This document shows, piece after piece, positions 1,148 through 33,227 of a stretch of 34,495 bases of DNA. Within the stretch, counting starts at the first letter, position 1. Every line of letters begins with the position of its first letter. The DNA comes from Neisseriaceae bacterium (lineage in GTDB: Bacteria; Pseudomonadota; Gammaproteobacteria; Burkholderiales; Chromobacteriaceae): assembly GCA_027484385.1 (NCBI GenBank), contig JAIXTB010000307.1, forward strand, positions 1 through 34,495. The letters are read 5' to 3'. Both the position numbers and the translations under genes were made by a program. The notes under the pieces are model-generated. The model was not told where the DNA came from, made no database searches, and saw nothing but the letters and a program-made list of their open reading frames with translations.

Positions 1148-1927
1148 ATGAAAAAGCCGCTTGTCCTGCTACCCCTGCTTGTTGCCCTGCTTTACGCTGC
1201 TGTCGAACACTACCAGGCCCCGGCCACCCCTGCTGCGGCCAACCCTGGCCCAGGCGGGCCGCAAGTAGCCACCCGTTTTGCCGACTGCCCGCAGCTGTTC
1301 TACCGCAACACCCCGCCAGCCATCCCCGCCGCACAGCAGCACGCCAGCACGCGCGAGCTGTGCTTCGACGATTTTGCCATTCTGTACGACGGCGACCGGC
1401 GCACCCCTGTATTTGCCGCCGAAAAACTGTCTGCCCGCAGCCTGGCCGACGCCGACGAAAAGCGCACCGACCGTTTCTACGAAGAAGCCCGCCTGCGCAG
1501 TAGCGAGCGCGCCACGCTGGCCGACTACCGCGGCAGCGGCTATGACCGTGGCCACATGGCCGCCGCCGCACAGCGCACCACGCCCGAGGCCATGGCGCAA
1601 AGCTTTAGCCTGGCCAATATGGTGCCGCAAGTGCCGGAAAATAACCGTGGCGTATGGGCCCGCGCGGTAGAGGCCGCCACGCGCAAATACGTGCAGCGCG
1701 CCAGCGGCGATGTGTACGTGTTTACCGGCCCCTATTTCGACATGCAGCAAACCCCGCGCTACGCGGGCAAGGTGCGCGTGCCCGACGCCTTGTACAAGCT
1801 GGTGTACGACCCCACCACCGGCAAGTCCTGGGTGTACTGGACGGCCAATGCCGACGTGGCCAAGCCGCAGATGCTCACCTACGCCGAGCTGCAAAGCCGC
1901 ACCGGCATAAGCTTTCTGCCGCAGTAA
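1148..1927 (+). CDS. Secreted DNA/RNA non-specific endonuclease (NUC1 family)
   Basis: N-terminal hydrophobic signal-like segment; GSGYDRGHMAAAA (DRGH active-site motif) and NMVPQVPENNRGVW. Confidence 0.85.
   Translation: MKKPLVLLPLLVALLYAAVEHYQAPATPAAANPGPGGPQVATRFADCPQLFYRNTPPAIPAAQQHASTRELCFDDFAILYDGDRRTPVFAAEKLSARSLADADEKRTDRFYEEARLRSSERATLADYRGSGYDRGHMAAAAQRTTPEAMAQSFSLANMVPQVPENNRGVWARAVEAATRKYVQRASGDVYVFTGPYFDMQQTPRYAGKVRVPDALYKLVYDPTTGKSWVYWTANADVAKPQMLTYAELQSRTGISFLPQ
1234..1244 (-). repeat. GGTTGGCCGCA dispersed motif
   Basis: Exact 11-mer, inside nuclease CDS. Confidence 0.9.
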
Positions 1928-1949
1928 GCACCACACAGCCAGCGGGCAA

Positions 1950-1960
1950 GGTTGGCCGCA
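1950..1960 (+). repeat. GGTTGGCCGCA dispersed motif
   Basis: Exact 11-mer, intergenic. Confidence 0.9.
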
Positions 1961-2050
1961 TTGGCACTTTTGTTCATGCTTTGTGTTGGACAAAATCCGG
2001 GCGCATTACTATGATCAGGGCAGTAATGAACCCTGCCCTGGCCCGCCATC

Positions 2051-2512
2051 ATGACCTCCGATACTGCCCCCGCACCTCTGCCCGCCCCGGCCGCCTGGCT
2101 GGGCTACGGTGGTGCCTTGCCCTTTATTACCCTGGCTGCCTTGTGCTGGCTAGCCGCTAGCCACGCCGGCTTCTGGTTCGGCCTGCTGCTGGCCTACGGT
2201 GCCGTGATTTTGTCGTTTGTCGGCGCGCTGCACTGGGGCTTTGCCATGACGCTGCCGGGGCTGGACACCGCACGCCGCAGCCGCATGATGGCCTGGAGCG
2301 TGGTACCAGCGCTGCTGGCCTGGCCTGCGGTGCTGCTACCGGCCGCCCCCGGCGTAGCCACCCTGCTGCTGGGCTATCTGCTGCATTACCTGCAAGACCA
2401 GCGCCTGTGCCGCCATGCCGACCTGCCCAGCTGGTACCTGCCGCTGCGCCGCCACCTTAGCCTGGCCGCCGGCACAAGTCTGCTGGCCGGCATGCTGGCA
2501 CTGCAGGGCTAA
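2051..2512 (+). CDS. DUF3429-like membrane protein
   Basis: Hydrophobic protein with GYGGALPF...VGALHWGFAM pattern. Confidence 0.6.
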   Translation: MTSDTAPAPLPAPAAWLGYGGALPFITLAALCWLAASHAGFWFGLLLAYGAVILSFVGALHWGFAMTLPGLDTARRSRMMAWSVVPALLAWPAVLLPAAPGVATLLLGYLLHYLQDQRLCRHADLPSWYLPLRRHLSLAAGTSLLAGMLALQG

Positions 2513-2515
2513 GCC

Positions 2516-2878
2516 ATGAGCCGCTACTTCAACAAACTGGCCGGTTTCCAGCGCAGCCCCGCCGGGCTGGAAAGCCGCCTGCTGGCGCTGGCGCCGCGCT
2601 GCCTGGTTTACGGCACGCTGCTGCTGGGTAGCCCTATCTGCCTGTGGCGGCTGCAGGTCTGGTTGTGGCCCGGCAGCTTTAGCGCACAACAGGCGAGCAT
2701 GGTGGATATTCTGGCCATCAGCTGGCTGATTCTGCTGTGGACGGTGGTGTTTACCGTGGCGCTGGGCGCGTGGATCGTGCGCATCATGAAAGGCCCAGCC
2801 TACGTGGCCGATGCCTACCCGCTGGCCGACCACCCGCGCCCCGGCAGCCAACCCGCCCTGCCGCCACACCATGACTGA
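2516..2878 (+). CDS. Hypothetical membrane protein
   Basis: Compact ORF with two predicted TM segments, tightly packed between neighbours. Confidence 0.55.
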   Translation: MSRYFNKLAGFQRSPAGLESRLLALAPRCLVYGTLLLGSPICLWRLQVWLWPGSFSAQQASMVDILAISWLILLWTVVFTVALGAWIVRIMKGPAYVADAYPLADHPRPGSQPALPPHHD

Positions 2879-4208
2879 CAACACCAAATCCCGCGCCGTA
2901 CCCGTGGGCCGCCTGTCGCGGCTGGCGCGCCTGGGCACCCTGGCTAGCGGCATTGCCGGTGGCATGGTGGCCGAAGGCGCACGCCGGCTCGCCAGCGGCC
3001 AACGCCCGCAATGGCAAGACCTGCTGCTGACCCCGGCCAACGCCACCCGCTTTGCCCACCAGCTGTCGCAGATGCGCGGCGCCGCCATGAAAATGGGACA
3101 GCTGCTGTCGATGGACGCCGGCGACCTGCTGCCGCCTACCCTGCGCGACATCCTGGCCACGCTGCGCGAAGACGCACACACCATGCCGCTCAGCCAACTG
3201 GCGGACGTACTGGAGCAGGAATGGGGTGAAGACTGGCAAACACGTTTCAAACGCTTTTCTTTTCAGCCGGTGGCGGCGGCGTCTATCGGCCAGGTGCACC
3301 GTGCCGAGCTGGCCAGCGGCCAGACGCTAGCGATCAAGGTGCAGTATCCCGGCGTGGCACGCAGCATTGACAGCGATGTAGACAATGTCGCCAGCCTGCT
3401 GCGCCTGAGCGGCCTGCTGCCGCCGGGCTTCGAGCTGGCCACGCTGCTGGCCGAAGCCAAGCGCCAGCTGCACCAGGAAGCCGACTACCAGCAGGAAGCG
3501 GCCAACCTGCAGCACTACCGCCAGCTGCTGGCCGGCCACGCCGACCTGCTGCTGCCGCAAGCCGTGCCCGAGCTGTGCACGCCGCGCATCCTGGCCATGG
3601 ACTTTATCGACAGCGTGCCCATTACCACGCTGCAGCAGGCGCCGCAGGCCGAGCGCGACCGCGTAGCCACCCTGCTGTTCGATTTATTGCTGCGCGAAAT
3701 CTTCGACTTTGCCTGCCTGCAAAGCGACCCGAACTTTGCCAACTACCGCTACCAGCCAGATAGCGGCCGGCTGGTGCTGCTGGACTTTGGCGCCACGCGC
3801 CGGCTGGCGGCCGACACCGTGCAGCACTACCGCCGCCTGCTGTTGGCCGCACAGCAGCAAGACCGGCAGGCGCTGGGCGAGGCGGCTACCGCGCTGGGCT
3901 ATTTCCCGCAGCAGGTCTCGGCGCGGCATTACGATGAAGTGATGGCTATCTTTCTGCTGGCGTGCGAGCCGCTACGCCACGCCGGCGCCTACGACTTTGG
4001 CAACAGTACGCTGGCCGCGCGCATGCGCGATGCCGGCTGGGCCATGCGCCACGAGCGCGACGCCTGGCACACCCCGCCGGTGGATGCACTGTTCCTGCAC
4101 CGCAAGGTAGCCGGGCTATCCCTGTTGGCCGCGCGCCTGCAGGGACGGGTGGACATCGCGAGCCTGTTTGCCCGCTACCACAGCAGTCCGGCGGCGATCA
4201 CGTCATAG
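2871..4208 (+). CDS. ABC1/UbiB/AarF-family atypical kinase
   Basis: KMGQLLSMD (KxGQ), AAASIGQVHRAEL, AIKVQYPGV, LDFGATRRL; ATG at 2871 chosen. Confidence 0.88.
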   Translation: MTDNTKSRAVPVGRLSRLARLGTLASGIAGGMVAEGARRLASGQRPQWQDLLLTPANATRFAHQLSQMRGAAMKMGQLLSMDAGDLLPPTLRDILATLREDAHTMPLSQLADVLEQEWGEDWQTRFKRFSFQPVAAASIGQVHRAELASGQTLAIKVQYPGVARSIDSDVDNVASLLRLSGLLPPGFELATLLAEAKRQLHQEADYQQEAANLQHYRQLLAGHADLLLPQAVPELCTPRILAMDFIDSVPITTLQQAPQAERDRVATLLFDLLLREIFDFACLQSDPNFANYRYQPDSGRLVLLDFGATRRLAADTVQHYRRLLLAAQQQDRQALGEAATALGYFPQQVSARHYDEVMAIFLLACEPLRHAGAYDFGNSTLAARMRDAGWAMRHERDAWHTPPVDALFLHRKVAGLSLLAARLQGRVDIASLFARYHSSPAAITS

Positions 4209-5597
4209 TTTGCGCAGGTATTTGAAGCGGATATCGATAAACTTCTGCCGCCAGCTGCGCAGGTCTTCCAGGCTCATGTGGTAGGGCTTGATGACACAGC
4301 CGTCCTGGTGGGCACGTACGGGCACCTGCCACAAGTTGTCGATATCCAGTCCACCAATGAATAAATTGTCACGCACGCTTTGCTCGAATACGGGGGTGCC
4401 GGGGAAGGGTATCAGGGTGCCTACCCAGTTACGGTCCAGCTGCAGGTCGTCGATCATGTCCATGGTTTCCTGCAAGGTTTCATTGGTGTCCTCAGGGAAA
4501 CCCATGATCCAGTTGCCGGCCAGGCTGACTCGGTGCTTTTTCAGGTCTTCTACCACTTTGTAGATGGTGTCGCGTTTCAGGCCCTTCTTGATCACGGTGT
4601 TGCGGATATAGTCCGAGCCATGCTCTGGCGCCAACAGTGCCGAAGTCATGCCCGCCGCCACCATGGCGTCGATCACATCGGTACGCAGGCTGTTCATGCC
4701 CAACCCACCGGCGGTAGTGAACTGGATATCCAGGCCGCGGCGCAGAATCTCGTTGCAGATACCCAGGATGTGCTTGTTGTCTACCGTGAGGTTGTCGTCC
4801 ATGAAGGTAAAGAAACGTTGGCCGCGCTCGGTGGCCAAGTACTCCAGCTCGTCGACAAATTTTTCCGGTGTGCGCCGCCGCAGCTTGCGCCCCTGCACCA
4901 AGTACATATCACAGAAGGTGCATTTAAACGGGCAACCGCGCTCGGAAATCACCGGCACCACATTTTTGATAACGTGGTTCTTGAAGTTGGAGTAATGGCC
5001 CAGGTCCATTTCGAACTCGGTAAAGTCCACCATATCCCAAGCCTGCATCGGCAGCTCTTCGTAATCGATCCACTCGCGATCGCGGTTGATACGCACTTTG
5101 CCTTGCTCATCGCGGAAGGCAAACGACTTGATATCGTTCAGGTTGCCCAGCTCGCCGCTGGCAATGCGGTCGGCCATAGCCACCATCTGCGGCTCGCCTT
5201 CGCCCAAGGCGATGTAGTCGAACTCCGGGCAGTTGATGAGGATTTCCTGCGGGTAGGTAGTGGCGTGAATGCCGCCGGTCATAATCTTGAGCCCCGGCGC
5301 TACCGCCTTGATCTCGCGCGCATAGTGCCAAGCGGTTTTCATGAAACCGGAAAACAGAAAGGAAATGGCCACCAGGCCAGGCTGCTCGGTACGGATGGCG
5401 TGCGTGATTTTGTCCAGGCAATACTGGTTGGGCTCGGCCTGCTCGTGCACACGCCGGTTGTTCAGGTCTAGCAATACCGGTGTGTGGCCGGCCTTGCGCA
5501 GCACCGCTGCCAGCGACAGCAAAGCCGCAGAAGGCAGGAAATCTGTGCGGTTGGGCTGGGGCTCATCCAGATAGGGGGCAATCAGCAGTACTTTCAC
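4203..5597 (-). CDS. B12-binding-domain radical SAM protein
   Basis: N-terminal cobalamin-binding-like domain; CPFKCTFC (CxxxCxxC) radical SAM motif. Confidence 0.88.
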   Translation of the reverse strand: MKVLLIAPYLDEPQPNRTDFLPSAALLSLAAVLRKAGHTPVLLDLNNRRVHEQAEPNQYCLDKITHAIRTEQPGLVAISFLFSGFMKTAWHYAREIKAVAPGLKIMTGGIHATTYPQEILINCPEFDYIALGEGEPQMVAMADRIASGELGNLNDIKSFAFRDEQGKVRINRDREWIDYEELPMQAWDMVDFTEFEMDLGHYSNFKNHVIKNVVPVISERGCPFKCTFCDMYLVQGRKLRRRTPEKFVDELEYLATERGQRFFTFMDDNLTVDNKHILGICNEILRRGLDIQFTTAGGLGMNSLRTDVIDAMVAAGMTSALLAPEHGSDYIRNTVIKKGLKRDTIYKVVEDLKKHRVSLAGNWIMGFPEDTNETLQETMDMIDDLQLDRNWVGTLIPFPGTPVFEQSVRDNLFIGGLDIDNLWQVPVRAHQDGCVIKPYHMSLEDLRSWRQKFIDIRFKYLRKL

Positions 5598-7180: not shown

Positions 7181-7877
7181 GGCGGGACGTTGCCTCGGTA
7201 AAGGTGGCCAGGTTGGCCGCATGGGCCTGGCCGTCGCGCAGCTCGAATACCTGCTGGCCAAACAGGGACACGTCTTGTTCGTCGTGGGTAATCAGCAGCA
7301 GCGGTATCTGCACCTGTGCCAGCAGGGCCAGCAGCGCCTGGCGCATGTCGTGGCGCAGCGCCGGGTCCAGCGCCGCAAAGGGTTCGTCCAGCAGCAAAGC
7401 GCGCGGTTTGGCCACCAGCGCCCGCGCCAGGGCCACACGCTGGCGCTGGCCGCCGGACAGCTCGCCCGGCCGCTGCTGTGCCATGGCCGCCAGGCCAAAG
7501 CTATGCAGCCAGTGCTCTACTTCGTCGTGCTGTGCGCTGGTACGCGGGTTCAGCCAGCCGCGCACCAGGCCAAAGGCCACGTTTTGCCGCACGGTCAGGT
7601 GGGGAAACAGCGCGTAATCCTGAAACAGATAGCCCAGCTGCCGCGCCTGCGGCGTCAGGTTGACCCCGCCGGGCTGCGAAAACAGCAGCCGCCCGCCCAG
7701 GCGGATATGGCCGCTGTCTGGCGTCATCAGCCCGGCAATGGCCTTGAGGGTCAGGCTTTTGCCGGCACCGGACTGGCCAAACAGCACGGTGTGCTGGCTG
7801 GCCGATTGCAGCTGTACGTTCAGCTGAAAGCTGCGCTTGCCGGTATGCAGGGTTTTCTGGATGGCAATATCAAGCAT
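7170..7877 (-). CDS. modC: Molybdate ABC transporter ATP-binding protein
   Basis: Walker A GQSGAGKS, signature LSGGQRQRVALARAL, Walker B LLLDEPFAALD; follows modB. Confidence 0.92.
   Translation of the reverse strand: MLDIAIQKTLHTGKRSFQLNVQLQSASQHTVLFGQSGAGKSLTLKAIAGLMTPDSGHIRLGGRLLFSQPGGVNLTPQARQLGYLFQDYALFPHLTVRQNVAFGLVRGWLNPRTSAQHDEVEHWLHSFGLAAMAQQRPGELSGGQRQRVALARALVAKPRALLLDEPFAALDPALRHDMRQALLALLAQVQIPLLLITHDEQDVSLFGQQVFELRDGQAHAANLATFTEATSRHDR
7211..7221 (+). repeat. GGTTGGCCGCA dispersed motif
   Basis: Exact 11-mer, inside modC. Confidence 0.9.
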
Positions 7878-7885
7878 GCGGCCCC

Positions 7886-8569
7886 CTAGCGCTGCGCGAC
7901 CCGGCCGGGGGCCAGGTAGCCTGCGGCCAACAGTACGGTGATGCACACGGCCGAGATCACGGCCACCAGCAGGTTGGCCACATCGTCTTGCCCGGCCTGC
8001 ACCGCTTCGTACACGGCTATCGACAGGGTCTGGGTTTTGCCCGGAATGCTGCCAGCCACCATCAGCGTGGCGCCAAACTCGCCTAGCGCACGGGCAAAGG
8101 CCAGCAGGATACCGGCCAGAATACCGCGCCAGGCCAGCGGCAGGGTAATGCGGAAAAACACTGCCAGACGGCTGATGCCCAGCACCTGCGCCGCCTGCTC
8201 CTGCTGGCCGTCTACCGCCTCGAACGCCGCCCGCGCCGGCTTGAACACCAGTGGAAACGCCACCACCGCCGCGGCGATGACCGCGCCCTGCCAGCTAAAA
8301 ATCAGGTTAATGCCCCACTGCGCCTGCAGCCAGCCGCCCAGCGCGCCCTGCCTGCCCAGTAACACCAGCAGGTAATAGCCCAGCACGGTAGGCGGCAGCA
8401 CCATGGGCAGCGTCAGCAGCGTGTCCAGCACATCGCGCCCGGGAAAGCGCCCGCGTGCCAGCACAAAGCCGGTCGCCACGCCCGCGAGCCCCGCCAGCAA
8501 GGTGGCCAGACCGGCTACTTTCAGCGACAGCGCCAGGGCGCCCCATACGGTATCCATACCCGGCATCAC
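7886..8569 (-). CDS. modB: Molybdate ABC transporter permease
   Basis: TLPMVLPPTVLGYYLL and RALGEFGATLMVAG (ModB EAA loop). Confidence 0.93.
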   Translation of the reverse strand: MMPGMDTVWGALALSLKVAGLATLLAGLAGVATGFVLARGRFPGRDVLDTLLTLPMVLPPTVLGYYLLVLLGRQGALGGWLQAQWGINLIFSWQGAVIAAAVVAFPLVFKPARAAFEAVDGQQEQAAQVLGISRLAVFFRITLPLAWRGILAGILLAFARALGEFGATLMVAGSIPGKTQTLSIAVYEAVQAGQDDVANLLVAVISAVCITVLLAAGYLAPGRVAQR

Positions 8570-9322
8570 TCAGGGTTTCTGAAAGCCATAGCGGGCCAGA
8601 ATGGCCTGCCCGGCGGGTGACAACACATAGTCGATAAAGCTTTTGGCCTCGCGCGGGTTGGCCGCAGCGGTGGTGCTAGCAATGGGGTAGCGGATGGCCT
8701 CACCCAGCGGCACGGTAAACGCTACTTTTACCTTGTCGGCCATCTGCCGGGCATCGGTGGCGTACACAAAACCGGCATCCACCTCGCCCCGCGCTACGTA
8801 GTCCAGCGACTGGCGCACGTTCAGCGTGTTCACCGCCTTGGCACTCAGCGCCGGCCACAGCCTGGCCACCTCCAACGCACTCTGGGCATAGCGCCCTACC
8901 GGCACGCTGGCCGGGTTGCCTATCGCCAGCTTGCCGTAAGCAGGCCGGGCCAGCTCGGCCAGGCTTTTCGGGGCCAGTTTGCTAGCGGCCGGCACCACCA
9001 GCACCAGGGTATTGCCCGCAAAATCGCGGCGGCTGGCCGGCTGGATCAGGCCCTGTTTTGCAGCCTGGTCCAGGGTTTCCTGGTCGGCCGAGGCCAGCAC
9101 ATCCACCGGCGCCCCTTTGGCCAGCTGCTGCAGTAGCGCGCCAGAGGCGGCAAAGTTCAGCAGCACCTTGCTGCCGGGGTGCTGCGCCTCGAAGCCCTGC
9201 GCCACGTCTTTAAAAGCATTACTCAGGCTGGCGGCGGCCGATACCGTTATCTCGCCGGCCAGCGCCATACTGCAGGCCAGGCTCAGGCCCATGCTGGCCA
9301 CCAGGGTGTGAATGCGCGTCAT
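8570..9322 (-). CDS. modA: Molybdate ABC transporter substrate-binding protein
   Basis: Signal peptide; ITVSAAASLSNAFKDVAQGFE...LNFAASGALLQQL; ATG at 9322. Confidence 0.93.
   Translation of the reverse strand: MTRIHTLVASMGLSLACSMALAGEITVSAAASLSNAFKDVAQGFEAQHPGSKVLLNFAASGALLQQLAKGAPVDVLASADQETLDQAAKQGLIQPASRRDFAGNTLVLVVPAASKLAPKSLAELARPAYGKLAIGNPASVPVGRYAQSALEVARLWPALSAKAVNTLNVRQSLDYVARGEVDAGFVYATDARQMADKVKVAFTVPLGEAIRYPIASTTAAANPREAKSFIDYVLSPAGQAILARYGFQKP
8656..8666 (+). repeat. GGTTGGCCGCA dispersed motif
   Basis: Exact 11-mer, inside modA. Confidence 0.9.
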
Positions 9323-9376: not shown

Positions 9377-9411
9377 GCAGGCGCAATACGGCAGCATGCG
9401 GCCAACTAGCG

Positions 9412-10419: not shown

Positions 10420-11037
10420 ATGCAGCGCATGGCACGAGAACGACTGCACACCGACACCCGCGAACACATCCTGGCTACTGGCGAGGCGCTGATCCATGGC
10501 CGCAGCTTTACGGCGATGGGCCTGACCGAGCTCTTGAACGAAGCCGGGGTGCCGAAGGGGTCGTTTTATCATTACTTCAAGTCGAAAGAAGACTTTGGCG
10601 TCGCCATGCTGACCCGCTACTTTGCGGTGTACCGCGAGCGTGTTGGCCTGCTGCTGGCCGATGACAGCATGGGTGATGGCCGTGCCCGGCTGCTGGCTTA
10701 CTTTCGGCAATGGCTGGATAACCACGCCCGCTGCGAAGCGCACAGCTGCTTGGCGGTCAAGCTGGCGGCCGAGGTGTCCGACCTGTCCGAGCCGATGCGC
10801 CTGGCACTGCATGAGGGCATGGACGCTATCGTGCACAGGTTGGCCGCATGCATCCGCGCTGGCCAGGCCGATGGCAGCATCAAGCCGCAGCTGCCACCGG
10901 ACGAAACCGCCTACGCGCTGTACAGCCTGTGGCTGGGCGCGGCGCTGATGCAGAAAACCCAGCACAGCCTGCTGCCGCTGCAGGCAGCCATGACGCATAC
11001 CGAAGGCCAGCTGGCGCCCTGCCGCCCGGCAGCCTGA
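10420..11037 (+). CDS. nemR: TetR/AcrR-family regulator, NemR-like
   Basis: TetR HTH (GLTELLNEAGVPKGSFYHYFKSKEDFG); SCLAVKLAAEVSDLSEPMR; adjacent to nemA. Alternative start 10429. Confidence 0.78.
   Translation: MQRMARERLHTDTREHILATGEALIHGRSFTAMGLTELLNEAGVPKGSFYHYFKSKEDFGVAMLTRYFAVYRERVGLLLADDSMGDGRARLLAYFRQWLDNHARCEAHSCLAVKLAAEVSDLSEPMRLALHEGMDAIVHRLAACIRAGQADGSIKPQLPPDETAYALYSLWLGAALMQKTQHSLLPLQAAMTHTEGQLAPCRPAA
10838..10848 (+). repeat. GGTTGGCCGCA dispersed motif
   Basis: Exact 11-mer, inside nemR. Confidence 0.9.
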
Positions 11038-11127: not shown

Positions 11128-11868
11128 ATGAACCACGCACTCGAACAGATGCAACAACACCGCAGTATCCGCAGCTACCAGGACAAAGCCGTACCGGCCG
11201 AGGTGCTGGACGCGGTGCTGCGCGCCGCCTGGCACGGCCCTACCTCCATCAACGGCCAGCAGGTGTCGCTGGTGGTGGTACAGGATGCCGCCCGCCGTGC
11301 GCGCATTGCCGAGATCGCCGGCGGCCAACCCTGGATCGCCCAGGCGCCGGTATTCGTTGCGGTGGTGGCCGACTTCTACAAAACCCGCCTGGGCGTGGCT
11401 GCCGCCGGTAGCGAACAAGTAATCCACGACAGCGTGGAAGGCTTTGCCGTGGCCGCCGTGGACGCCGGCATTACCATGGGCAATCTGATGACCGCAGCCC
11501 GCGCCGCCGGCTTGGGCGTGGTGCCGATTGGCGGTATTCGCCGCGACCCGGCTGCCATGATCGAGCTGCTGGGCCTGCCCGAGCTCACCTTCCCGCTGGC
11601 CGGTGTGGTACTGGGCTACAGCGCCGACGATAGCGCCGTGAAGCCGCGCCTGCCGCTGGCTACGTTTGCCCATAGCGAGCGCTACGATGCCGCCGCCCTG
11701 CCCGGCCACATCGCCGCCTACGACCAGACCCTGCAGCAACACTGGCAAAACCTGGGCCGCGCCGACGGCGAGCCTTGGAGCCAGAGCATTGCCCGTTATT
11801 ACCAGCAAGTGTATTTCCCGCAAGTGGCCCCGGTAGCACGCGCCCAGGGCTTTGGATTCGACCGCTAA
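11128..11868 (+). CDS. Nitroreductase-family NAD(P)H oxidoreductase (NfsA-like)
   Basis: HRSIRSYQDKAVPAEVLDAVLRAAWHGPTSINGQQ flavin nitroreductase N-terminus; GLGVVPIGGIRR. Confidence 0.85.
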   Translation: MNHALEQMQQHRSIRSYQDKAVPAEVLDAVLRAAWHGPTSINGQQVSLVVVQDAARRARIAEIAGGQPWIAQAPVFVAVVADFYKTRLGVAAAGSEQVIHDSVEGFAVAAVDAGITMGNLMTAARAAGLGVVPIGGIRRDPAAMIELLGLPELTFPLAGVVLGYSADDSAVKPRLPLATFAHSERYDAAALPGHIAAYDQTLQQHWQNLGRADGEPWSQSIARYYQQVYFPQVAPVARAQGFGFDR

Positions 11869-13041: not shown

Positions 13042-13067
13042 GCCTGCGGCCAACGTTGGCCGCAGGC
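13042..13067. repeat. 26-bp perfect palindrome made of two head-to-head GTTGGCCGCA motifs
   Basis: GCCTGCGGCCAACGTTGGCCGCAGGC is its own reverse complement; intergenic, 16 bp upstream of the DJ-1-like gene. Confidence 0.95.
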
Positions 13068-13793: not shown

Positions 13794-13819
13794 ACAGGGT
13801 TGGCCGCGGCCAACCCTGT
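13794..13819 (+). terminator. Terminator-like 26-bp perfect palindrome containing two overlapping GGTTGGCCGC motifs
   Basis: ACAGGGTTGGCCGCGGCCAACCCTGT followed by TTTGT, 26 bp after the DJ-1-like gene stop. Confidence 0.8.
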
Positions 13820-19475: not shown

Positions 19476-19486
19476 GGTTGGCCGCA
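19476..19486 (+). repeat. GGTTGGCCGCA dispersed motif
   Basis: Exact 11-mer, intergenic. Confidence 0.9.
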
Positions 19487-21318: not shown

Positions 21319-22325
21319 ACGCCCGCCACCATCTGCTAGGCGCCGGTTTTGAAGCAGCGCGCAGCCTGCCGGGCGTGGGCGAACACGGCCACAGCTTTCG
21401 CGTGCAGCTGCGCACCGCCGCGCTGCCGGACACCCTGCCCGCGCTGCAAGGCGCCCTGCAACAGGCGGTAGCGCCGTTTCACTACGGCAATATCAGCCAG
21501 CACCTGGCCGATGCTAGCGACCTGTCGCTGGCCCGCCACCTGCTGGCCGCCTGCGGCCAACCCGGCAGCCTGCACCTGGCCAGCGCGCCGGACCGTGGCG
21601 TGCTGCTGGGCGAGGATGGCCGCGAGTACGTGTACTTCGATACCCGCTTTGAAGCCGCGCACCAGCTGCCGCACGTACCGCCCGGCCACAAATGCGGCCG
21701 CCTGCACGGCCACGGCTTTGGCGTACGCATCGTTGCCGACGCGCGCCATGCCTCGCTGAACGACATCCTGCTGCAAGCCTGGCCACCGCTGTTTGCCCAG
21801 CTGAACCACCGCTACCTCAACAACATCCCCGGCCTGGACAACCCCACCAGCGAGGTGATGGCCGCCTGGCTGTACCAGCAGCTGCAGCCACGCCTGCCCG
21901 GCCTGGCCTGGGTGGAAGTACGCGAAACGCACACCGCCGGCAGCCAGTTTGATGGCCACACCTACCGCATCTGGAAAGAACAGCACTTTGAAAGCGCGGT
22001 GCCGTTTGACGCCGCCGGCAACTACACCGGCCACAGCTACCTGATCCGCTTGATGCTGCAAGGCAGCGTAGACCGCGTGATGGGCTGGGTGCTGGACTTT
22101 GGCGACGTCAAAGACCGCTTCAAGCCCATCTACCGCCAGCTGGACCACAACCCGCTGGACAAGCTCAGCGGCATCCGCGCAGCCGACGCCGGCAGCGTGG
22201 CCGAATGGGTGCACGGCGAGCTCAAGCCGCTGGTACCGGAGCTATCGCGCATTGACCTGATGGAAACCCCGGAACAAGGCGTCTCGCTGACCTTCCGTGG
22301 CGACATGCAGTGGCCGTTGCTGTAA
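21315..22325 (+). CDS. queD: 6-carboxytetrahydropterin synthase-family protein with three QueD/PTPS-like modules (336 aa)
   Basis: Canonical [24 protein letters not shown] and [23 protein letters not shown] in the middle; degenerate modules before and after; ATGA overlap with queC. Confidence 0.85.
21552..21562 (-). repeat. GGTTGGCCGCA dispersed motif
   Basis: Exact 11-mer, inside queD. Confidence 0.9.
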
Positions 22326-22335: not shown

Positions 22336-22977
22336 ATGGCGAACTACACCGTAAAAGAGATCTTCTACACCCTGCAGGGCGAAGGCCGCCAGGCAGGCCG
22401 CGCAGCGGTATTCTGCCGCTTTAGCGGCTGTAACCTGTGGAGCGGGCGCGAAGAAGACCGCAGCAAGGCCATCTGCCAGTTCTGCGATACCGATTTTGTC
22501 GGCACCGGCCCCGACGGCGGCAAGTTTGCCACCGCCGCCGAGCTGGCCGCGCGCATTGCCGCCACCTGGCCGGCCGCTGCCACCGGCGGCCAACCTTATG
22601 TGGTGTTTACCGGCGGTGAGCCGCTGCTGCAGCTGGACGAGCCGCTGATCGACGCCCTGCACGCGCTGGGTTTCGAGGTCGCAGTGGAAACCAACGGCAG
22701 CCTGCCGGCGCCGCGCGGCATAGACTGGATCTGCGTCAGCCCCAAAGCCGGCGCCGACTGGGTACAGCGCAGCGGCCACGAGCTGAAGCTGGTCTACCCG
22801 CAGCCCACCCTGCTGCCAGGCGAGCTACCCGCCGATCTGCAGTTTGACCACCTGTACCTGCAGCCGATGGACAGCCCGCTGCAGCGCCAGAATACGCAGG
22901 AAGCCATTGCCTGGTGCATGGCCCACCCGGCCTGGCGGCTGTCGGTGCAAACGCACAAGGTGGTGAACATCCGTTAA
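22336..22977 (+). CDS. queE: 7-carboxy-7-deazaguanine synthase
   Basis: VKEIFYTLQGEGRQAGRAAVFCRFSGCNLWSGREEDR..CQFCDTDF, FTGGEPLLQLD, ETNGS. Confidence 0.94.
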   Translation: MANYTVKEIFYTLQGEGRQAGRAAVFCRFSGCNLWSGREEDRSKAICQFCDTDFVGTGPDGGKFATAAELAARIAATWPAAATGGQPYVVFTGGEPLLQLDEPLIDALHALGFEVAVETNGSLPAPRGIDWICVSPKAGADWVQRSGHELKLVYPQPTLLPGELPADLQFDHLYLQPMDSPLQRQNTQEAIAWCMAHPAWRLSVQTHKVVNIR

Positions 22978-22993: not shown

Positions 22994-23004
22994 TGCGGCC
23001 AACC
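22994..23004 (-). repeat. GGTTGGCCGCA dispersed motif
   Basis: Exact 11-mer, intergenic after queE. Confidence 0.9.
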
Positions 23005-23523: not shown

Positions 23524-24372
23524 ATGACTGCCACCCTTCCCGCCTGCGCCGGTATCGGCCTGCGCCACCCGCACTACCGCCAGGTACTGGCCCAGCAGCC
23601 ACCGCTTGGCTGGATAGAGCTGCACAGCGAAAACTTCTTTGACGGCGGCCAGCCGCTGGCCATGCTGCAACAGTTGGCCGCACGCTACCCGCTGTCGCTG
23701 CACGGCGTGGGCCTGGGCCTGGGCGCCGCTGCCCGCCCTGACGCCACCCACCTGGCCGCGCTACGGCGCTTGCTGGATGCCGTACCGGCGGTGGCGGTAT
23801 CCGAGCACCTGTCGTTCAACCACGACGCCAGCCAGCGCTTTGCCAACGACCTGCTGCCCATCCCCTACACCCGCGCCATGCTGGAGGTGGTAGCGGCCAA
23901 CGTGGCCGAGGCACAAGACGCCCTGGGCCGCCCGCTGTTGATAGAAAACCTGTCCAGCTACCTGGCCTACCCCGGCAACGACATGCACGAAGGCGAATTC
24001 CTGGCCGGGCTGGTAGAACGCACCGGCTGCGGCATTCTGCTGGACGTGAACAACCTGTACGTGAACCAGCAAAACCTGGGCACCGACGTGGACGCCTTTC
24101 TGGCCGCGCTGCCGCCGGATGCCATTGGCGAAATCCACCTGGCCGGCTACACCGAGCGCAGCTTTGACGACGGCAGCCGCCTGCTGGTGGATACCCACAG
24201 CCGCCCGGTTTACCCGGCGGTGTGGCAGCTGTACCGCCAGATCATCGCGCGCTTTGGCGTGCGGCCAACCTTGATCGAGTGGGATATCGATATCCCGCCG
24301 CTGGACACGCTGCTGGCCGAAGCGGCCACCGCGCAGGCCATCCTCGATCAGTACACGGAGGCTGCGCCATGA
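23524..24372 (+). CDS. bufB: DUF692 multinuclear non-heme iron oxidase (MNIO), BufB-like
   Basis: GIGLRHPHYRQVL..WIELHSENFF, SLHGVGLGLG, LLIENLSSYL, LLDVNNLYVN, EIHLAGY. Confidence 0.9.
   Translation: MTATLPACAGIGLRHPHYRQVLAQQPPLGWIELHSENFFDGGQPLAMLQQLAARYPLSLHGVGLGLGAAARPDATHLAALRRLLDAVPAVAVSEHLSFNHDASQRFANDLLPIPYTRAMLEVVAANVAEAQDALGRPLLIENLSSYLAYPGNDMHEGEFLAGLVERTGCGILLDVNNLYVNQQNLGTDVDAFLAALPPDAIGEIHLAGYTERSFDDGSRLLVDTHSRPVYPAVWQLYRQIIARFGVRPTLIEWDIDIPPLDTLLAEAATAQAILDQYTEAAP
24260..24270 (-). repeat. GGTTGGCCGCA dispersed motif
   Basis: Exact 11-mer, inside bufB. Confidence 0.9.
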
Positions 24373-25118
24373 ACGAAACCGCCTGGCAACACGCCCTGCT
24401 GGATGCCATCACCACGCCGCAGTGGCAGCCGGACCCGCGCTTTGACGCTGCTGCGCTGGCGGTGTACCGCAACAACTACCGCGTGGGGCTGATGGAGATG
24501 CTGGCGCTGGTGTACCCGATCTGCCGCCAGCTGCTGGGAGACGAGTTTTTCGATGCGCTCAGCCGCGAATACGTCAAGGCCACACCGTCGGCCAGCGGCA
24601 ACCTGCACCGCTACGGTGAGGGTTTTGCCGGCTTTGTCGCCGCCTTCGAACACACCGCGCACATCGGCTACCTGCCCGACGTGGCACAGCTGGAGTGGGC
24701 ACTGCACCGTGGCTACTACGCTGCCGACGCCACGCCGCTGGCCATCGACACCCTGGCGGCCATCCCGCAGCAGCAGTGGGGTGAGCTGCGCTTTCGCTGC
24801 CACCCGGCCTGCCAGGTACTGGACAGCGCGTGGCCACTGGCCAGCATTCACGCCCACCACCAGCCCGCCACCGCCGGCTGCGCGGTAGACCTGCACCAGG
24901 CACAGCCGCTGCTGCTATGGCGCGACGGCGACGGCATCATGCAGCTGCAGCAGCTGCCCCCCGGCCAGCCTGCCTTCTGCCTGGCGCTGCTTAGCGGCGC
25001 CACACTGGATGCAGCCAGCGCCGCAGGGTTGGCCGCATCGCCTGCGTTCGACCTGCAAGCCGCCCTGCTGCTGGTACTGCAGCACGGCGTGCTGTCTGCC
25101 ATCAAGGAGCCATCATGA
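24369..25118 (+). CDS. bufC: DUF2063 putative DNA-binding-like / MNIO partner protein, BufC-like
   Basis: AALAVYRNNYRVGLMEMLALVYPICRQLLGDEFF; ATGA overlap with bufB. Confidence 0.87.
   Translation: MNETAWQHALLDAITTPQWQPDPRFDAAALAVYRNNYRVGLMEMLALVYPICRQLLGDEFFDALSREYVKATPSASGNLHRYGEGFAGFVAAFEHTAHIGYLPDVAQLEWALHRGYYAADATPLAIDTLAAIPQQQWGELRFRCHPACQVLDSAWPLASIHAHHQPATAGCAVDLHQAQPLLLWRDGDGIMQLQQLPPGQPAFCLALLSGATLDAASAAGLAASPAFDLQAALLLVLQHGVLSAIKEPS
25027..25037 (+). repeat. GGTTGGCCGCA dispersed motif
   Basis: Exact 11-mer, inside bufC. Confidence 0.9.
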
Positions 25119-25616: not shown

Positions 25617-26462
25617 ATGAGCGTTCGCCCTACCCTGGTTTTGCAAGCCCCCCATCTGGACACCGCCCGCATCACCGAGCTGGCCATTCTGGCCGGCACC
25701 GAGCCGGTGGCACCTGTTGACGGTGTCGCCCGCCTGGCTGCGGCCAACCCCGAGCGCCGCGAGCTGGTACTGGCCCGCGCCAGTGGCCTGGGCGTGGACG
25801 CCAACTACGTGGACAGCCAGCGCCGCTTTGCCGATTTCGGCCTGGTCGTGTCCGACATGGACTCCACGCTGATCACCATCGAGTGCATCGACGAGATCGC
25901 CGACATGCAGGGCCTGAAGCCGCAGGTGGCCGCCATTACCGCCCGCTCCATGCGCGGCGAGCTGGATTTTGCGCAGTCGCTGCGCGAGCGCGTGGCGCTG
26001 CTGGCCGGGCTGCCGGAAAGCGCGCTGGCCCGCGTATACGAAGAACGCCTGCAATTGATGGCCGGTGCGCGCGAGCTGCTGGCGGCCTGCCGCGAACATG
26101 GCATCAAGTTCATGCTGGTGTCCGGTGGCTTTACCTACTTTACCGAGCGCCTCAAGGCCGAGCTGGGCCTGGACTACACCTACGCCAACCAGCTGGAAAT
26201 CATCGATGGCAAGCTCACCGGCCGCGTGGTGGGCGATATTGTCGATGCGGAAGCCAAGCGCCGCCTGCTGATAGAAAAACGCAGCGAGCTGGGCCTGGCG
26301 CCGGAACAGGTGATCGCCATGGGCGATGGTGCCAACGACCTCCTGATGCTGGCCGAAGCCGGCGTAGGCGTGGCCACCCACGCCAAACCGGTGGTGAAAG
26401 CCCAGGCGCAATACAGCCTGAGCGAGAGCGGGCTGGACGGCATCCGCAAGCTGTTCCTGTAA
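25617..26462 (+). CDS. serB: Phosphoserine phosphatase
   Basis: VSDMDSTLITIECIDEIAD, LVSGGFTYF, GDGANDLLMLAEAGVGVA. Confidence 0.95.
   Translation: MSVRPTLVLQAPHLDTARITELAILAGTEPVAPVDGVARLAAANPERRELVLARASGLGVDANYVDSQRRFADFGLVVSDMDSTLITIECIDEIADMQGLKPQVAAITARSMRGELDFAQSLRERVALLAGLPESALARVYEERLQLMAGARELLAACREHGIKFMLVSGGFTYFTERLKAELGLDYTYANQLEIIDGKLTGRVVGDIVDAEAKRRLLIEKRSELGLAPEQVIAMGDGANDLLMLAEAGVGVATHAKPVVKAQAQYSLSESGLDGIRKLFL
25739..25749 (-). repeat. GGTTGGCCGCA dispersed motif
   Basis: Exact 11-mer, inside serB. Confidence 0.9.
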
Positions 26463-26978: not shown

Positions 26979-28855
26979 CGCCATCCACCCTCCAACAAGC
27001 CGAGCAAAGTGCCCTGCGCATGAGCCGGCTGCTGCCGGTACTGTCGGCGCTGTTTTTATTGCTGCTGTGGTCGGTGGTCGTGGAAACGCTCGGCGAGCGT
27101 GCTACCTTTGCCCGTCAGCGCATCCATACCGAGCAACACAGCTGGCTAAACCAGGCGGTACGGGGTATCGACACCCGCCTGCAGGCGCTGCGCGAAGACA
27201 TGTTGCTGTACCGCGAGCCGGGCGACGGGCTGGCACGCCAGGCCAATGGCTTGTACCCGCTGGAAAGTGGCCGCCTGTGGCTGGTAGATGACACCGCGCA
27301 AAACCAGCTGCACGGCGAACCGCAAGCACTGGACAACACTGCGCAGGACAATGTGCGCCAGCTGCTGCAGCAGCCGCTGGTAGACGGCAAGCTGCTGATC
27401 ATCGATGCCAGTACCCCGCGCGACCCCGAGCGCCTGCAGATTGTGGTACCGCAATGTGACCAGGGCGGCTGCCACGCCGCGCTGACCGGCCATGTCCGTT
27501 TTAGCGAGCTGCTGGACAGCGACCTGCTGGCCGACGACCCGCATATCGTCCTGACCGACAGCAGTAATAATGCGCTGCTCAACCACGGCAACAGCCCGCA
27601 AAAGCTGGAAAGTTATCTGGAAAGCAAGCTGCTGCACACCAGCCAGGCCCAGGCCGAGCTGGCCACCGTTCCCCTGCAGCTCAGTGTGCACCTGCCCCCG
27701 GTGCGCTACGCCGAGCCCTTTGTGCTGTTTGCGCTCTACCTTATTGGTGCCGCCACCCTGATGAGCGGGGCACTGGTGGTGATACTGCTACGGGTTGGCC
27801 GCAGGCTGGCCTTCATCCTGCAGCGCAGCGAAGAAGTGAACCAGGCCACCCACCTGCTGACCCTCACCAACAACAGCCTGCGCGACCGCCTGCGCAAGCT
27901 CATCGAAGAACAGCGTGACCAGCAAACACTGATCGACACCGTGCAGGTCGGCGTACTGCTGATTGATGCCGAGCACAAGATCGTGATTACCGCCAACGAA
28001 GCGGCCAGCCGGCTGCTGGGCTACACCCGCCAGGCACTGTACCGCCGCACGCTGGAAAGCCTGTTTACCTCGCCCTTGCAATACACCCAGCTGCTGGCCC
28101 TGCTGCAAGAGCAGCAACAGCTGAGCGAGCGCGAAGTGGAGCTGAACACCCGCCACGGCGAGCGGCTATGGAGTGTGCTATCCATGCGTGCGCTGCTGTT
28201 TCGCGAGCGCAACGCCTATGTCCTGAGCTTTGTGGACATTACCGAGCGCCTGCTGCACGCCCAACGGCTGGAAGAAGAAAAGCAGGCTACCGAGCGCGCC
28301 CTGTCTCAGCTGCAGTCCACCCAGCACGAGCTGTACCAGCGCGCCACCTGCGACGACCTGACCGGTATCGCCAACCGCCGTCATTTACTGTCCGGTGCGG
28401 GCAAAGCGCTGGAACTGGCGCGGCTGGACAACCAGCCCTATAGCGTGGCGGTGCTGGATATCGACCATTTCAAATCCATCAACGACCAGTACGGCCACGC
28501 CAGCGGTGACATCGCCTTGCAGCGCATGACGCAGTTCATCACCGCCGCCCTGCCAGCCGAAGCGCTGTTTGGCCGTATGGGTGGCGAAGAATTTGCCATT
28601 ACCCTGCCAGGCTACGGCCTGAACGAAGCGCATGCACTGATAGACAACATCCGCCAGGGCCTGGCGGCACAAGCGATACAGATCGACAGCTACACGCTGC
28701 ACATCACCTTTTCGGCAGGCGTGGCCGAACGCAAACGCCACAGCAACCAGCTTTCCGAGCTGCTGAAAATCGCCGATCACGCCATGTACCAGGCCAAGCA
28801 CAACGGCCGCAACCGCGTGGAAAGCGCTTTTCAGGCACCCGACAGCGCGGGCTGA
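26975..28855 (+). CDS. Membrane-anchored PAS-GGDEF diguanylate cyclase
   Basis: Two TM segments; PAS-like region; DDLTGIANRRHLL, GRMGGEEFAITLPG. Confidence 0.9.
   Translation: MTPSTLQQAEQSALRMSRLLPVLSALFLLLLWSVVVETLGERATFARQRIHTEQHSWLNQAVRGIDTRLQALREDMLLYREPGDGLARQANGLYPLESGRLWLVDDTAQNQLHGEPQALDNTAQDNVRQLLQQPLVDGKLLIIDASTPRDPERLQIVVPQCDQGGCHAALTGHVRFSELLDSDLLADDPHIVLTDSSNNALLNHGNSPQKLESYLESKLLHTSQAQAELATVPLQLSVHLPPVRYAEPFVLFALYLIGAATLMSGALVVILLRVGRRLAFILQRSEEVNQATHLLTLTNNSLRDRLRKLIEEQRDQQTLIDTVQVGVLLIDAEHKIVITANEAASRLLGYTRQALYRRTLESLFTSPLQYTQLLALLQEQQQLSEREVELNTRHGERLWSVLSMRALLFRERNAYVLSFVDITERLLHAQRLEEEKQATERALSQLQSTQHELYQRATCDDLTGIANRRHLLSGAGKALELARLDNQPYSVAVLDIDHFKSINDQYGHASGDIALQRMTQFITAALPAEALFGRMGGEEFAITLPGYGLNEAHALIDNIRQGLAAQAIQIDSYTLHITFSAGVAERKRHSNQLSELLKIADHAMYQAKHNGRNRVESAFQAPDSAG
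27793..27803 (+). repeat. GGTTGGCCGCA dispersed motif
   Basis: Exact 11-mer, inside GGDEF gene. Confidence 0.9.
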
Positions 28856-28871
28856 AAGTTGGCCGCATGAA

Positions 28872-28917: not shown

Positions 28918-30294
28918 CTAAGCCAGCGCGGCCAGCAGCTTGCCGTGGATACCGCCAAAGCCGCCATTGCTCATCACCAGCACCTGGTCGCCGGCGCGGG
29001 CTTCGGCCACGATGGCGGTCACCAGCGCGTCGATATCGTCAAAGCAGCGCGCCTTGTCGCCCAGCGGCGCCAGCGCCTCGTCCACGCGCCAGCCCAGGTT
29101 GGCCGCACCGTAGCAGAACACCACGTCGGCGTCCTGCAGCGAGCCCGGCAGCGCAGCCTTCATGGTGCCCAGCTTCATGGTATTGGAGCGCGGCTCCAGT
29201 ACCGCCAGAATACGCGTGCCGCGGCCAACCTTGTGGCGCAGGCCGGCTACCGTGGTGGTAATGGCAGTGGGGTGGTGGGCAAAGTCGTCGTACACGGTGA
29301 TATCGCGCACGGTGCCTTTTACTTCCATGCGGCGCTTCACGCTCTGGAAGCGCGACAGCGCGTCGATGGCCACCGCAGGCGTAACACCCACATGGCGGGC
29401 GGCGGCAATGGCGGCTACGGCGTTGAGGCGGTTGTGTTCGCCCGGCACACCCCACACCACGCGGCCTTGCAGCTGGCCATCGAGCAGCACATCGAAGCTG
29501 CCGTCAGCGTCGGCCGCACCGGCTTGCCAGCCGCTGTCGGTACCGAAGGTTTCTACCGGCGTCCAGCAGCCACGGTCCAGCACGCGCTGCAGGCTGGCTT
29601 CGCGGCCGTTGGCCACCACCAGGCCCTGGCCGGGCACGGTACGCACCAGGTGGTGGAACTGGGTTTCGATCGCCGCCAGGTCGGCAAAGATATCGGCGTG
29701 GTCGTATTCCAGGTTATTCAGCACAGCGGTGCGCGGGCGGTAGTGTACGAACTTGCTGCGCTTGTCGAAGAAGGCGGTATCGTATTCGTCGGCCTCGATC
29801 ACAAAGAACGGACTCTGGCTGGCCGCGTCTTGCGCCGGGGTACCCGGCAGGCGGGCAGAGATGCCAAAGTTTTCCGGTATGCCGCCAATCAGGAAGCCCG
29901 GCGCCAGGCCGGCGTCCTGCAGGATCCACGCCAGCATGGAGCTGGTGGTGGTCTTGCCGTGGGTACCGGCCACCGCCAGCACCCATTTGTCGTGCAACAC
30001 GTTTTCGGCCAGCCACTGCGGGCCGGAAATATACGGCAGGCCACGGTCGAGGATGGCTTCCATCAGCGGCTTGCCGCGTGTCACCACATTGCCCACCACA
30101 AACACATCGGCGCCGATATCGGCCTGCTCGGCACCAAAGCCTTGCATCAGCTCGATGCCCATGGCTTCCAGCTGGGTGCTCATCGGCGGGTAGACGTTGG
30201 CATCGCAGCCGGTCACCTTGTGGCCGGCGGCTTTGGCGATGGCGGCGATACCGCCCATGAAGGTGCCGCAAATACCGAGAATATGGATATGCAT
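28918..30294 (-). CDS. mpl: UDP-N-acetylmuramate:L-Ala-gamma-D-Glu-meso-DAP ligase
   Basis: MHIHILGICGTFMGGIAAIAKAAGHKVTGCDANVYPPMSTQLE; AVAGTHGKTTTSSM. Confidence 0.94.
   Translation of the reverse strand: MHIHILGICGTFMGGIAAIAKAAGHKVTGCDANVYPPMSTQLEAMGIELMQGFGAEQADIGADVFVVGNVVTRGKPLMEAILDRGLPYISGPQWLAENVLHDKWVLAVAGTHGKTTTSSMLAWILQDAGLAPGFLIGGIPENFGISARLPGTPAQDAASQSPFFVIEADEYDTAFFDKRSKFVHYRPRTAVLNNLEYDHADIFADLAAIETQFHHLVRTVPGQGLVVANGREASLQRVLDRGCWTPVETFGTDSGWQAGAADADGSFDVLLDGQLQGRVVWGVPGEHNRLNAVAAIAAARHVGVTPAVAIDALSRFQSVKRRMEVKGTVRDITVYDDFAHHPTAITTTVAGLRHKVGRGTRILAVLEPRSNTMKLGTMKAALPGSLQDADVVFCYGAANLGWRVDEALAPLGDKARCFDDIDALVTAIVAEARAGDQVLVMSNGGFGGIHGKLLAALA
29097..29107 (+). repeat. GGTTGGCCGCA dispersed motif
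   Basis: Exact 11-mer, inside mpl. Confidence 0.9.
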
Positions 30295-30337
30295 GATGTG
30301 CTGCAGACAGAAATCGGGAAAGGCAGAAGCATACCGC

Positions 30338-30372
30338 AAAGCCGCCGTGGCTTGGTGGCCACGGCGGCTTTT
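30338..30372. terminator. Terminator between nhaD-like gene and mpl
   Basis: AAAGCCGCCGTGGC-N6-GCCACGGCGGCTTTT. Confidence 0.85.
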
Positions 30373-30382
30373 ACGCGGTGTA

Positions 30383-31777: not shown

Positions 31778-31912
31778 CGGGGCTCCTTGTGCAGGCAGCA
31801 AGGGTGCTGCTCTTTTTGTAACAGAATGTTGTAGGACTGCAGTTTACCCGATTAATTCCAGAAGCCCTTTTCCACAAAAGCAAAAACCCGCGCTGCTCAT
31901 CGCGAAAGGCGT

Positions 31913-31942
31913 AAAAAAGCCCTTCAGCATGGCAGAAGGGCT
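31913..31942 (-). terminator. Rho-independent terminator downstream of gloA
   Basis: Minus strand AGCCCTTC-TGCCATGCT-GAAGGGCT-TTTTT. Confidence 0.85.
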
Positions 31943-31981
31943 GGCGATGACCGCAGCAAGCACGCCGCGGGCGGGTAGCGC

Positions 31982-32371
31982 TTAGCGCGTCCCTTTCTGG
32001 ATGAACTCGATCTTGTAGCCATCCGGGTCTTCCACAAAAGCAATCACGGTGGTGCCGTGCTTCATCGGGCCGGCTTCGCGTACCACCTTGCCGCCCTTGG
32101 CGCGTACGGCGTCACAGGCGGCGTAGGCGTCCGCCACTTCTACTGCCAGGTGGCCAAAGGCGTTGCCCAGCTCGTAGCTGTCGGTATCCCAGTTGTGGGT
32201 CAGCTCGATCACGCTGTGGCTGTCTTCGTCGCCGTAGCCGACAAAAGCCAGGGTAAAGCGGCCTTCCGGGTAGTCGTGGCGGCGCAGCAGGGTCATGCCC
32301 AGCACTTCGGTATAAAAGGCAATGGAACGGTCGAGCTGGCCGACACGGATCATGGTATGCAGCAGGCGCAT
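31982..32371 (-). CDS. gloA: Lactoylglutathione lyase (glyoxalase I)
   Basis: [58 protein letters not shown]. Confidence 0.95.
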
Positions 32372-32435
32372 GGGGTTCTCCGGCAAATAAGTCTGTGCAC
32401 AGCTGGCATCACGGCCAGCGTACAAAGGTGTCAAA

Positions 32436-32446
32436 GGTTGGCCGCA
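32436..32446 (+). repeat. GGTTGGCCGCA dispersed motif
   Basis: Exact 11-mer, intergenic between gloA and metallopeptidase gene. Confidence 0.9.
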
Positions 32447-32513
32447 TGGCGGCAAGAACGGGCAGATGGGGGCGCGGTGGCCAAGTTAAAGCCAGCCGGG
32501 CAGAACAGGCTGT

Positions 32514-33227
32514 TCAGCCGTAGCGGAACAGGCTGTCACCATGGGTTTTCAGCCACTGGCGTGCCGGCTGCCAGCCGGGGTACAGCCGCCCGACTTCGGC
32601 CCAGAATGCGGGTGAATGGTTCATGTGGCGCAGGTGCGCCAGCTCGTGGGCAATCACATAATCCAGCACCGCAGGCGGCGCCTGCACCAGGCGCCAGTTC
32701 AGCCGGATAATGCCCTGGCTGGTACAGCTGCCCCAGCGCGTGCGCGCCGACGATAGCGCCCAGCCGGACAGCGGCCGTGCCGCGTGCGCTTCCCATGCGG
32801 CCAACCTGCTGCAAAAGCCCTCGCGAGCCTGTTTTTGCAGCCAGGCCACCACCGCTGCGGCCAACCTGGCAGGCTGCTGCAGGCCGGGGCCGGCGATATG
32901 CAACCTATCGCCATCAATGCGCGCGCGGTGCCGCGTGCCCTCTTCCACCACCAGCTGCAGCGTATGCCCGGCCAGCATCACCGTGCCGCGGCTGGCTTCG
33001 CGCCGGTGTTCTTCGGCCTGGTGGCGCGCCAGATGCGCCATGATCCAGTCACGCTTGCTGGCCAGAATATCCTGCAGCGCGGCCAGCGATACCGCAGGCG
33101 GGGCAATCAGCTCTACCTCGCCATCGCGTATGCGTATGCCCACGCTCTGCCGTGCACGGCGCGTGAGCCGCACCGCCAGCGGGCCGTCAGGCAGGGTGAG
33201 GCTGAGCGGCGCGTGCTTTGCGTTCAT
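32514..33227 (-). CDS. YgjP-like (DUF45/M48-type) zinc metallopeptidase
   Basis: HELAHLRHMNHSPAFW (HExxH) and RTRWGSCTSQGIIRLNWRL. Confidence 0.88.
   Translation of the reverse strand: MNAKHAPLSLTLPDGPLAVRLTRRARQSVGIRIRDGEVELIAPPAVSLAALQDILASKRDWIMAHLARHQAEEHRREASRGTVMLAGHTLQLVVEEGTRHRARIDGDRLHIAGPGLQQPARLAAAVVAWLQKQAREGFCSRLAAWEAHAARPLSGWALSSARTRWGSCTSQGIIRLNWRLVQAPPAVLDYVIAHELAHLRHMNHSPAFWAEVGRLYPGWQPARQWLKTHGDSLFRYG
32796..32806 (-). repeat. GGTTGGCCGCA dispersed motif
   Basis: Exact 11-mer, inside YgjP-like gene. Confidence 0.9.
32856..32866 (-). repeat. GGTTGGCCGCA dispersed motif
   Basis: Exact 11-mer, inside YgjP-like gene, 60 bp from the previous copy. Confidence 0.9.

Follow-up and report, generated by a model that had tools for sequence, protein, structure and literature searches.

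A probable DNA uptake sequence of Vogesella and related words in sister genera of the Chromobacteriaceae

What is the role of an 11-bp word that recurs on both strands of a single bacterial contig? Contig JAIXTB010000307.1 (34,495 nucleotides; its whole length is referred to here as the window) belongs to a draft assembly labelled Neisseriaceae bacterium (GCA_027484385.1) and carries 16 exact copies of GGTTGGCCGCA, nine on the plus strand and seven on the minus strand. An earlier note on this DNA had reported these copies at the positions and strands where we find them, and favoured an uptake sequence of an unrecognised type over a site for a nucleoid, segregation or methylation protein. We consider it probable, with good but not complete confidence, that GGTTGGCCGCA is a DNA uptake sequence (DUS)-like tag of the genus Vogesella, which would be read by a ComP-family pilin receptor and would belong to a family of dialects with a CCG core. 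Markov ranking, the replichore test, comparison with related genera and a search for ComP-like pilins all support the uptake reading.

Dinucleotide shuffles of the window contain a mean of 0.13 copies of GGTTGGCCGCA, and at most 2. The 9-mer core GTTGGCCGC occurs 38 times, as the earlier note had counted by hand (16 11-mers, nine further copies of the 10-mer GTTGGCCGCA, six copies of GGTTGGCCGC, without the final A, and seven of the core only), against 3.1 expected under an order-4 Markov model of the window. Under this model, the most over-represented 9- to 12-mers of the window are GTTGGCCGC(A) and the words that shift or extend it. The word is not confined to the window: the host genome (G000; 3.47 Mb in 334 contigs, 98.7% complete) holds 1,194 copies of GGTTGGCCGCA, 613 on one strand and 581 on the other, and two copies of a reversed control word. 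The host can be assigned to Vogesella (Chromobacteriaceae), as its glutamyl-tRNA synthetase is 89–98% identical to those of V. aquatica, V. urethralis, V. indigofera and others. We compared 61 genomes of the family from 10 genera. All 13 Vogesella genomes in this set contain 1,141–1,510 copies of GGTTGGCCGCA (reversed word: 0–4), and the 48 other family genomes contain 1–22. Outside the family, none of 291 sampled genomes of the order has more than 19. When counted as GGTTGGCCGMR, nine named Vogesella-group genomes have 1,346–1,589 copies. The density of the 10-mer form is about 1 per 1.5 kb.

The shape of the word was profiled in 0.71 Mb from two Vogesella genomes, in which GTTGGCCGCA was observed 486 times against 10.1 expected under a Markov model, an approximately 48-fold excess. 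One-base neighbours are near expectation, with a modest excess chiefly of forms ending in C or G, which bears out the earlier statement that composition does not account for the motif. The Vogesella consensus is AAGGTTGGCCGCA. Its flanks show a weak preference for AAG on the 5′ side and nothing further out, and the word is therefore not part of a longer repeat. Copies are enriched in intergenic DNA, by 1.6–2.1-fold for the 10-mer and 2.3-fold for the 11-mer. The earlier note had taken 91% of the window to be coding, which a simple open reading frame caller lowers to about 88%; the intergenic enrichment comes to about two-fold. Orientation relative to genes is about equal, and genic copies favour two reading frames, encoding Leu-Ala-Ala or Ala-Ala-Asn.

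No replichore polarity was found in a complete Vogesella genome sampled every 200 kb (the two orientations number 61 and 49 in regions of negative GC skew, 80 and 84 in regions of positive skew), which fits the uptake reading. In 5-kb windows of normal GC content, counts of the word are more even than random in three genomes, with variance-to-mean ratios of 0.43, 0.51 and 0.62 (P = 0.0004, 0.0004 and 0.054). Low-GC stretches hold few copies; one of these, at about 3.40–3.62 Mb of Vogesella-set genome G059 (L149, L150), perhaps represents acquired islands. At the gltX locus, one intragenic site is common to eight of ten Vogesella, and the remaining sites come and go.

The word also forms inverted pairs. 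Each Vogesella genome has 26–66 instances of the arrangement TGCGGCCAAC-N2..16-GTTGGCCGCA, and no other genome of the family has more than one. In the sampled DNA, most inverted pairs are intergenic, with a gene end no more than about 60 bp away, and some of them are accompanied by a T tract and fold far better than shuffled sequences. Both pairs in the window are of this genome-wide kind. The pair at 13045–13064 is a perfect 20-bp palindrome, TGCGGCCAACGTTGGCCGCA, made of two 10-mers and located 54 bp past a gene end, with no T tract (fold z −5.9). At 13798–13815, two copies without the final A overlap tail to tail (GGTTGGCCGCGGCCAACC) and are followed by CTGTTTT (fold z −3.2); this terminator-like pair lies about 30 bp past the gene ending at 13767. 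Judging by their position and predicted folding, inverted pairs close to gene ends probably also act as transcription terminators. Together, abundance, strand symmetry, spacing, intergenic enrichment and inverted pairs are the genomic hallmarks of a DNA uptake sequence.

The likeness to Neisseriaceae DUS extends to a continuous word of 10–12 bp, present in hundreds to thousands of copies on both strands in genic and intergenic DNA, to inverted pairs (terminators in DUS, terminator-like here), to genus-wise dialects differing by a few bases, and to a ComP-like pilin encoded in the genome. The Vogesella 10-mer is somewhat less dense than DUS, for which 1 per 0.4–1.1 kb is quoted. Eight DUS dialects have been described, all of which conserve a 5′-CTG-3′ core (Frye et al. 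2013, PMC3630211), whereas the aligned bases are CCG in every Chromobacteriaceae word that we found. Five Chromobacteriaceae genomes examined in the same survey, those of Laribacter, Lutiella nitroferrum 2002, Pseudogulbenkiania NH8B and two Chromobacterium, were reported to have no obvious DUS (Frye et al. 2013, PMC3630211). The earlier note had stated that the motif is not DUS-like. It is indeed not one of the eight known dialects, but the word of sister genera, AGGTTGGCCGAA, shares 9 of 12 bases with two of them, AG-mucDUS and AG-simDUS, when aligned in the same register; the Vogesella word shares eight. This comparison was made after the words had been seen, with dialect sequences taken partly from print, and the likeness of AGGTTGGCCGAA to DUS dialects is suggestive only. 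The uptake signal sequences (USS) of Pasteurellaceae (AAGTGCGGT, ACAAGCGGT) share abundance, presence on both strands and inverted pairs, the latter being formed by both DUS and USS (PMC12616744). They belong to another class of bacteria, and their sequence likeness to the Vogesella word is limited to GCGG on the minus strand (TGCGGCC). USS combine a 9-bp core containing GCGGT with AT-rich downstream tracts; the Vogesella core differs, and its flank profile shows no AT-rich or phased flanks. Text searches of the available literature returned nothing pairing "uptake sequence" with Vogesella. For "uptake sequence" with Chromobacteriaceae they returned Neisseria and Kingella taxonomy, judged by titles, and for the 11-mer as a string they returned unrelated subjects, judged mostly by titles.

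We scanned 80 kb from each of the nine other genera for over-represented k-mers. The core recurred there with different endings: GGTTGGCCGAA in genus groups g6, g7, g9 and g10, and GGTTGGCCGAG(C) in g5. The family words consist of GGTTGGCCG followed by CA, AA or AG, so that endings are GCA, GAA or GAG by genus. GGTTGGCCGAA is used by Pseudogulbenkiania, Paludibacterium denitrificans and some Crenobacter relatives, and the Crenobacter luteus word ends in GAG. Whole-genome counts of GGTTGGCCGAR are 126–1,068 in the bearing genera (g5, g6, g7, g9 and g10) and 629 in one member of the genus Aquitalea (G010), with background counts in the rest. Bearers of these putative dialects include Pseudogulbenkiania subflava, P. 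ferrooxidans 2002, Paludibacterium denitrificans, Crenobacter luteus, Crenobacter oryzisoli, strain JH1-16 and G010, an uncultured Aquitalea metagenome-assembled genome (MAG). P. ferrooxidans 2002, which we take to be the strain previously named Lutiella nitroferrum 2002, has 689 copies of GGTTGGCCGMR. The sister genera that were to be compared according to the earlier note thus carry related words with the same core and other last bases. Only background counts were seen in Chromobacterium, other Aquitalea, Craterilacuibacter, Paludibacterium purpuratum and a Laribacter MAG, as well as in Chitinibacteraceae relatives, Snodgrassella and Neisseria elongata, and GTTKGCCGAA did not exceed 112 copies in any of 386 further genomes of the order.

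In the Aquitalea MAG (L227; loci L245–L248), two words coexist: GTTGGCCGAA, with about 1,370 copies as obtained by difference, and GTTTGCCGAA, with 616. Other Aquitalea have neither, which raises the possibility of a dialect switch in G010. A candidate Chromobacterium word, AGCTTGCCGT in G017, was rejected as an internal protein repeat. The strong k-mers of Crenobacter caeni contig C5 (G030/G371) were likewise rejected as an uptake word, being those of a CRISPR-like array (L114:16588–19951 and L115:11–3071), in which GTTCACTGCCGGACAGGCAGCTCAGAAA recurs every 60 bp in at least 108 copies; we take this repeat to resemble that of type I-F. Neither the other contigs of C. caeni nor C. intestini contain such a word.

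A candidate receptor is encoded in the host genome, where the earlier note had proposed looking for a ComP-like minor pilin. C190:11676–12089 encodes a 138-amino-acid prepilin whose best PDB match is ComP (2m3k, E 1.4e-10), whereas the PilE-like pilin of the fimT-pilV-pilW-pilX operon matches PilA and PilE instead. The Pfam ComP_DUS match was not treated as proof, since another of the genome's pilins matches that model more strongly. ComP-like matches occur in all 61 family genomes, although they are short and weak in g4 and in parts of g3 and g8, and the 13 Vogesella all have a predicted orthologue. When 30 ComP-like pilins are aligned, all Vogesella sequences form one clade (100/100). Some Vogesella subgroups have a ComP-like pilin only about 44–54% identical to that of the host, though the word is constant across the genus (L062–L074). 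Nuclear magnetic resonance has placed DUS contacts of ComP in the β1-β2 loop and in the DD region, which is held by two disulfides formed by four cysteines (PMC4906244). The arginine aligned with ComP R90 in the β1-β2 loop (residue numbering from the literature and our own count) is kept in 13 of 13 Vogesella. Compared with ComP (2m3k, 5hz7, 2nba; PMC4906244), the Vogesella pilin shares this arginine and differs in having one C-terminal disulfide pair, a short D region and about five extra residues before the β1 strand.

In 12 of 13 Vogesella, the loop segment aligned with IA-R90-GALDS of ComP reads RNTD[ND]GY. Pseudogulbenkiania and g6 have KNTDDGE or KNTDEGE at this place, g7 and g5 have INVDEGE, VNADEGE or KNTDEGE, and the segment of the Aquitalea MAG is ANTDAGK. 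In word-free genera it reads DNVEQAS, ENVEQAS, DNIDQAS or ENLASIT (Chromobacterium) and GNARADS (Aquitalea). A loop resembling (R/K)NTDxG thus tracks the word with one exception among the 30 sequences, and differs in all seven non-bearing sequences aligned.

We propose that the cell's own DNA carries a tag about once per 1.5 kb, in its 10-mer form, that a ComP-family minor type IV pilin would bind this tag at the cell surface, and that tagged fragments would preferentially be pulled in by natural transformation. Copies could then accumulate if uptake and recombination favour fragments with the tag over those without it. Such a system most likely works like DUS without being one of the eight known dialects, a reading drawn from sequence comparison. 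The word lacks the CTG core and the pilin lacks the two-disulfide DD region, and for this reason we do not file the Vogesella word as a DUS dialect. The CCG family of the Chromobacteriaceae and the CTG-core DUS of Neisseriaceae, the sister family, probably have a common origin.

Several observations weigh against a ComP-read, DUS-like tag. The likeness to DUS is modest, and 1.2% of letter shuffles equal the AGGTTGGCCGAA match when strand and shifts are allowed. The pilin is without the second disulfide and the long DD region, by which ComP is defined and through which it contacts DNA in Neisseria; cysteines for the second DD disulfide are conserved in none of the 30 family sequences, which keep the C-terminal cysteine pair alone. 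Chromobacterium and Aquitalea have a ComP-like pilin but not the word, and Paludibacterium bears the word yet has the divergent loop GNDKRDE. The loop-word correlation was found after the fact and is uncorrected for kinship among the 30 sequences; because phylogeny was not controlled, the loop comparison is a lead, not proof. ComEC is found in 11 of 13 Vogesella, and two models detected no ComEC channel domain in the host or in its nearest relative, G058, both of which are draft assemblies. This lineage may therefore not transform at present. The comP-like gene is intact, and the flanks of comEC in G057, G056 and G050 had no match in the approximately 10% of the host genome that was compared. 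Either transformation was recently lost with the word kept, or ComEC falls in a gap in both drafts.

A rival reading is an uptake sequence that arose independently of DUS and is read by another pilin or surface protein, such as a FimT- or PpdA-like one. In its favour, the core is CCG and not CTG, the ComP-like pilin is without the DD region, FimT/PilV/PilW/PilX-type pilins are also present, and in Pasteurellaceae the receptor is predicted to be a minor pilin of the PpdA type (PMC12616744). We nevertheless regard independent origin as unlikely, given the same-register likeness to DUS, the tracking of the word by the loop of the ComP-like pilin, and a neighbouring family with a known ComP-DUS pairing (PMC3868556). 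A genome-maintenance signal, whether Chi, KOPS, matS or a nucleoid protein site, would agree with a short, abundant, evenly spaced and chromosome-wide word. KOPS, Chi-like and matS-like sites are disfavoured because the word shows no polarity and is present all round the chromosome. Its last bases also change fast among sister genera and it is absent from Chromobacterium and most Aquitalea, which would be odd for the site of a core protein, and inverted pairs near gene ends would be unexpected. The nucleoid or segregation site raised in the earlier note thus finds no support, and we judge a maintenance role to be very improbable.

Restriction or methylation recognition sites are usually shorter and are commonly avoided. 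A genus-wide methyltransferase or restriction target would here have to be a non-palindromic word of 10–11 bp, 48-fold in excess and constant in 13 species, and would leave the inverted pairs and their terminator positions unexplained; its probability appears slighter still. Composition, codon usage or a mobile repeat (REP- or MITE-like) might be suspected from the two preferred reading frames of genic copies, but conserved flanks are absent, the reversed word is nearly absent, one-base neighbours stay near background apart from the mild last-base excess, the word is enriched outside genes, and family members of similar GC content are without it. We give this explanation almost no credence.

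Returning to a DUS-like tag, we lean slightly towards a second branch of DUS across the Chromobacteriaceae, with a CCG core and a ComP without the DD region. If so, tagging of self-DNA would be older than the split of the two families, Chromobacterium and most Aquitalea would have lost it, and dialects would change in their final two or three bases together with the β1-β2 loop of the receptor. So far, only two families have established uptake sequences, and the Chromobacteriaceae genomes examined in the reference survey were reported to have none. With our findings, at least six genera, mostly of environmental bacteria, would join those with probable self-DNA tags, and both the universality of the CTG core and the receptor's need for a DD region are called into question. 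The closely related putative dialects, including one genome with two, also form a set in which co-change of tag and receptor could be studied.

Within the window, the exact copies of GGTTGGCCGCA on the plus strand lie at 1950–1960, 7211–7221, 8656–8666, 10838–10848, 19476–19486, 25027–25037, 27793–27803, 29097–29107 and 32436–32446, and those on the minus strand at 1234–1244, 21552–21562, 22994–23004, 24260–24270, 25739–25749, 32796–32806 and 32856–32866; the copies starting at 1950, 19476, 22994 and 32436 are intergenic. Outside the inverted pairs, GTTGGCCGCA is found at 3842–3851, 23673–23682 and 28858–28867 (plus) and at 7922–7931, 9397–9406, 13356–13365 and 20709–20718 (minus), with those starting at 9397 and 28858 being intergenic. 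The form without the final A occurs on the minus strand at 3498–3507, 11321–11330, 22586–22595 and 29221–29230, and the 9-mer core only at 4124–4132 and 4817–4825 (plus) and at 2995–3003, 18054–18062, 18206–18214, 20200–20208 and 23893–23901 (minus).

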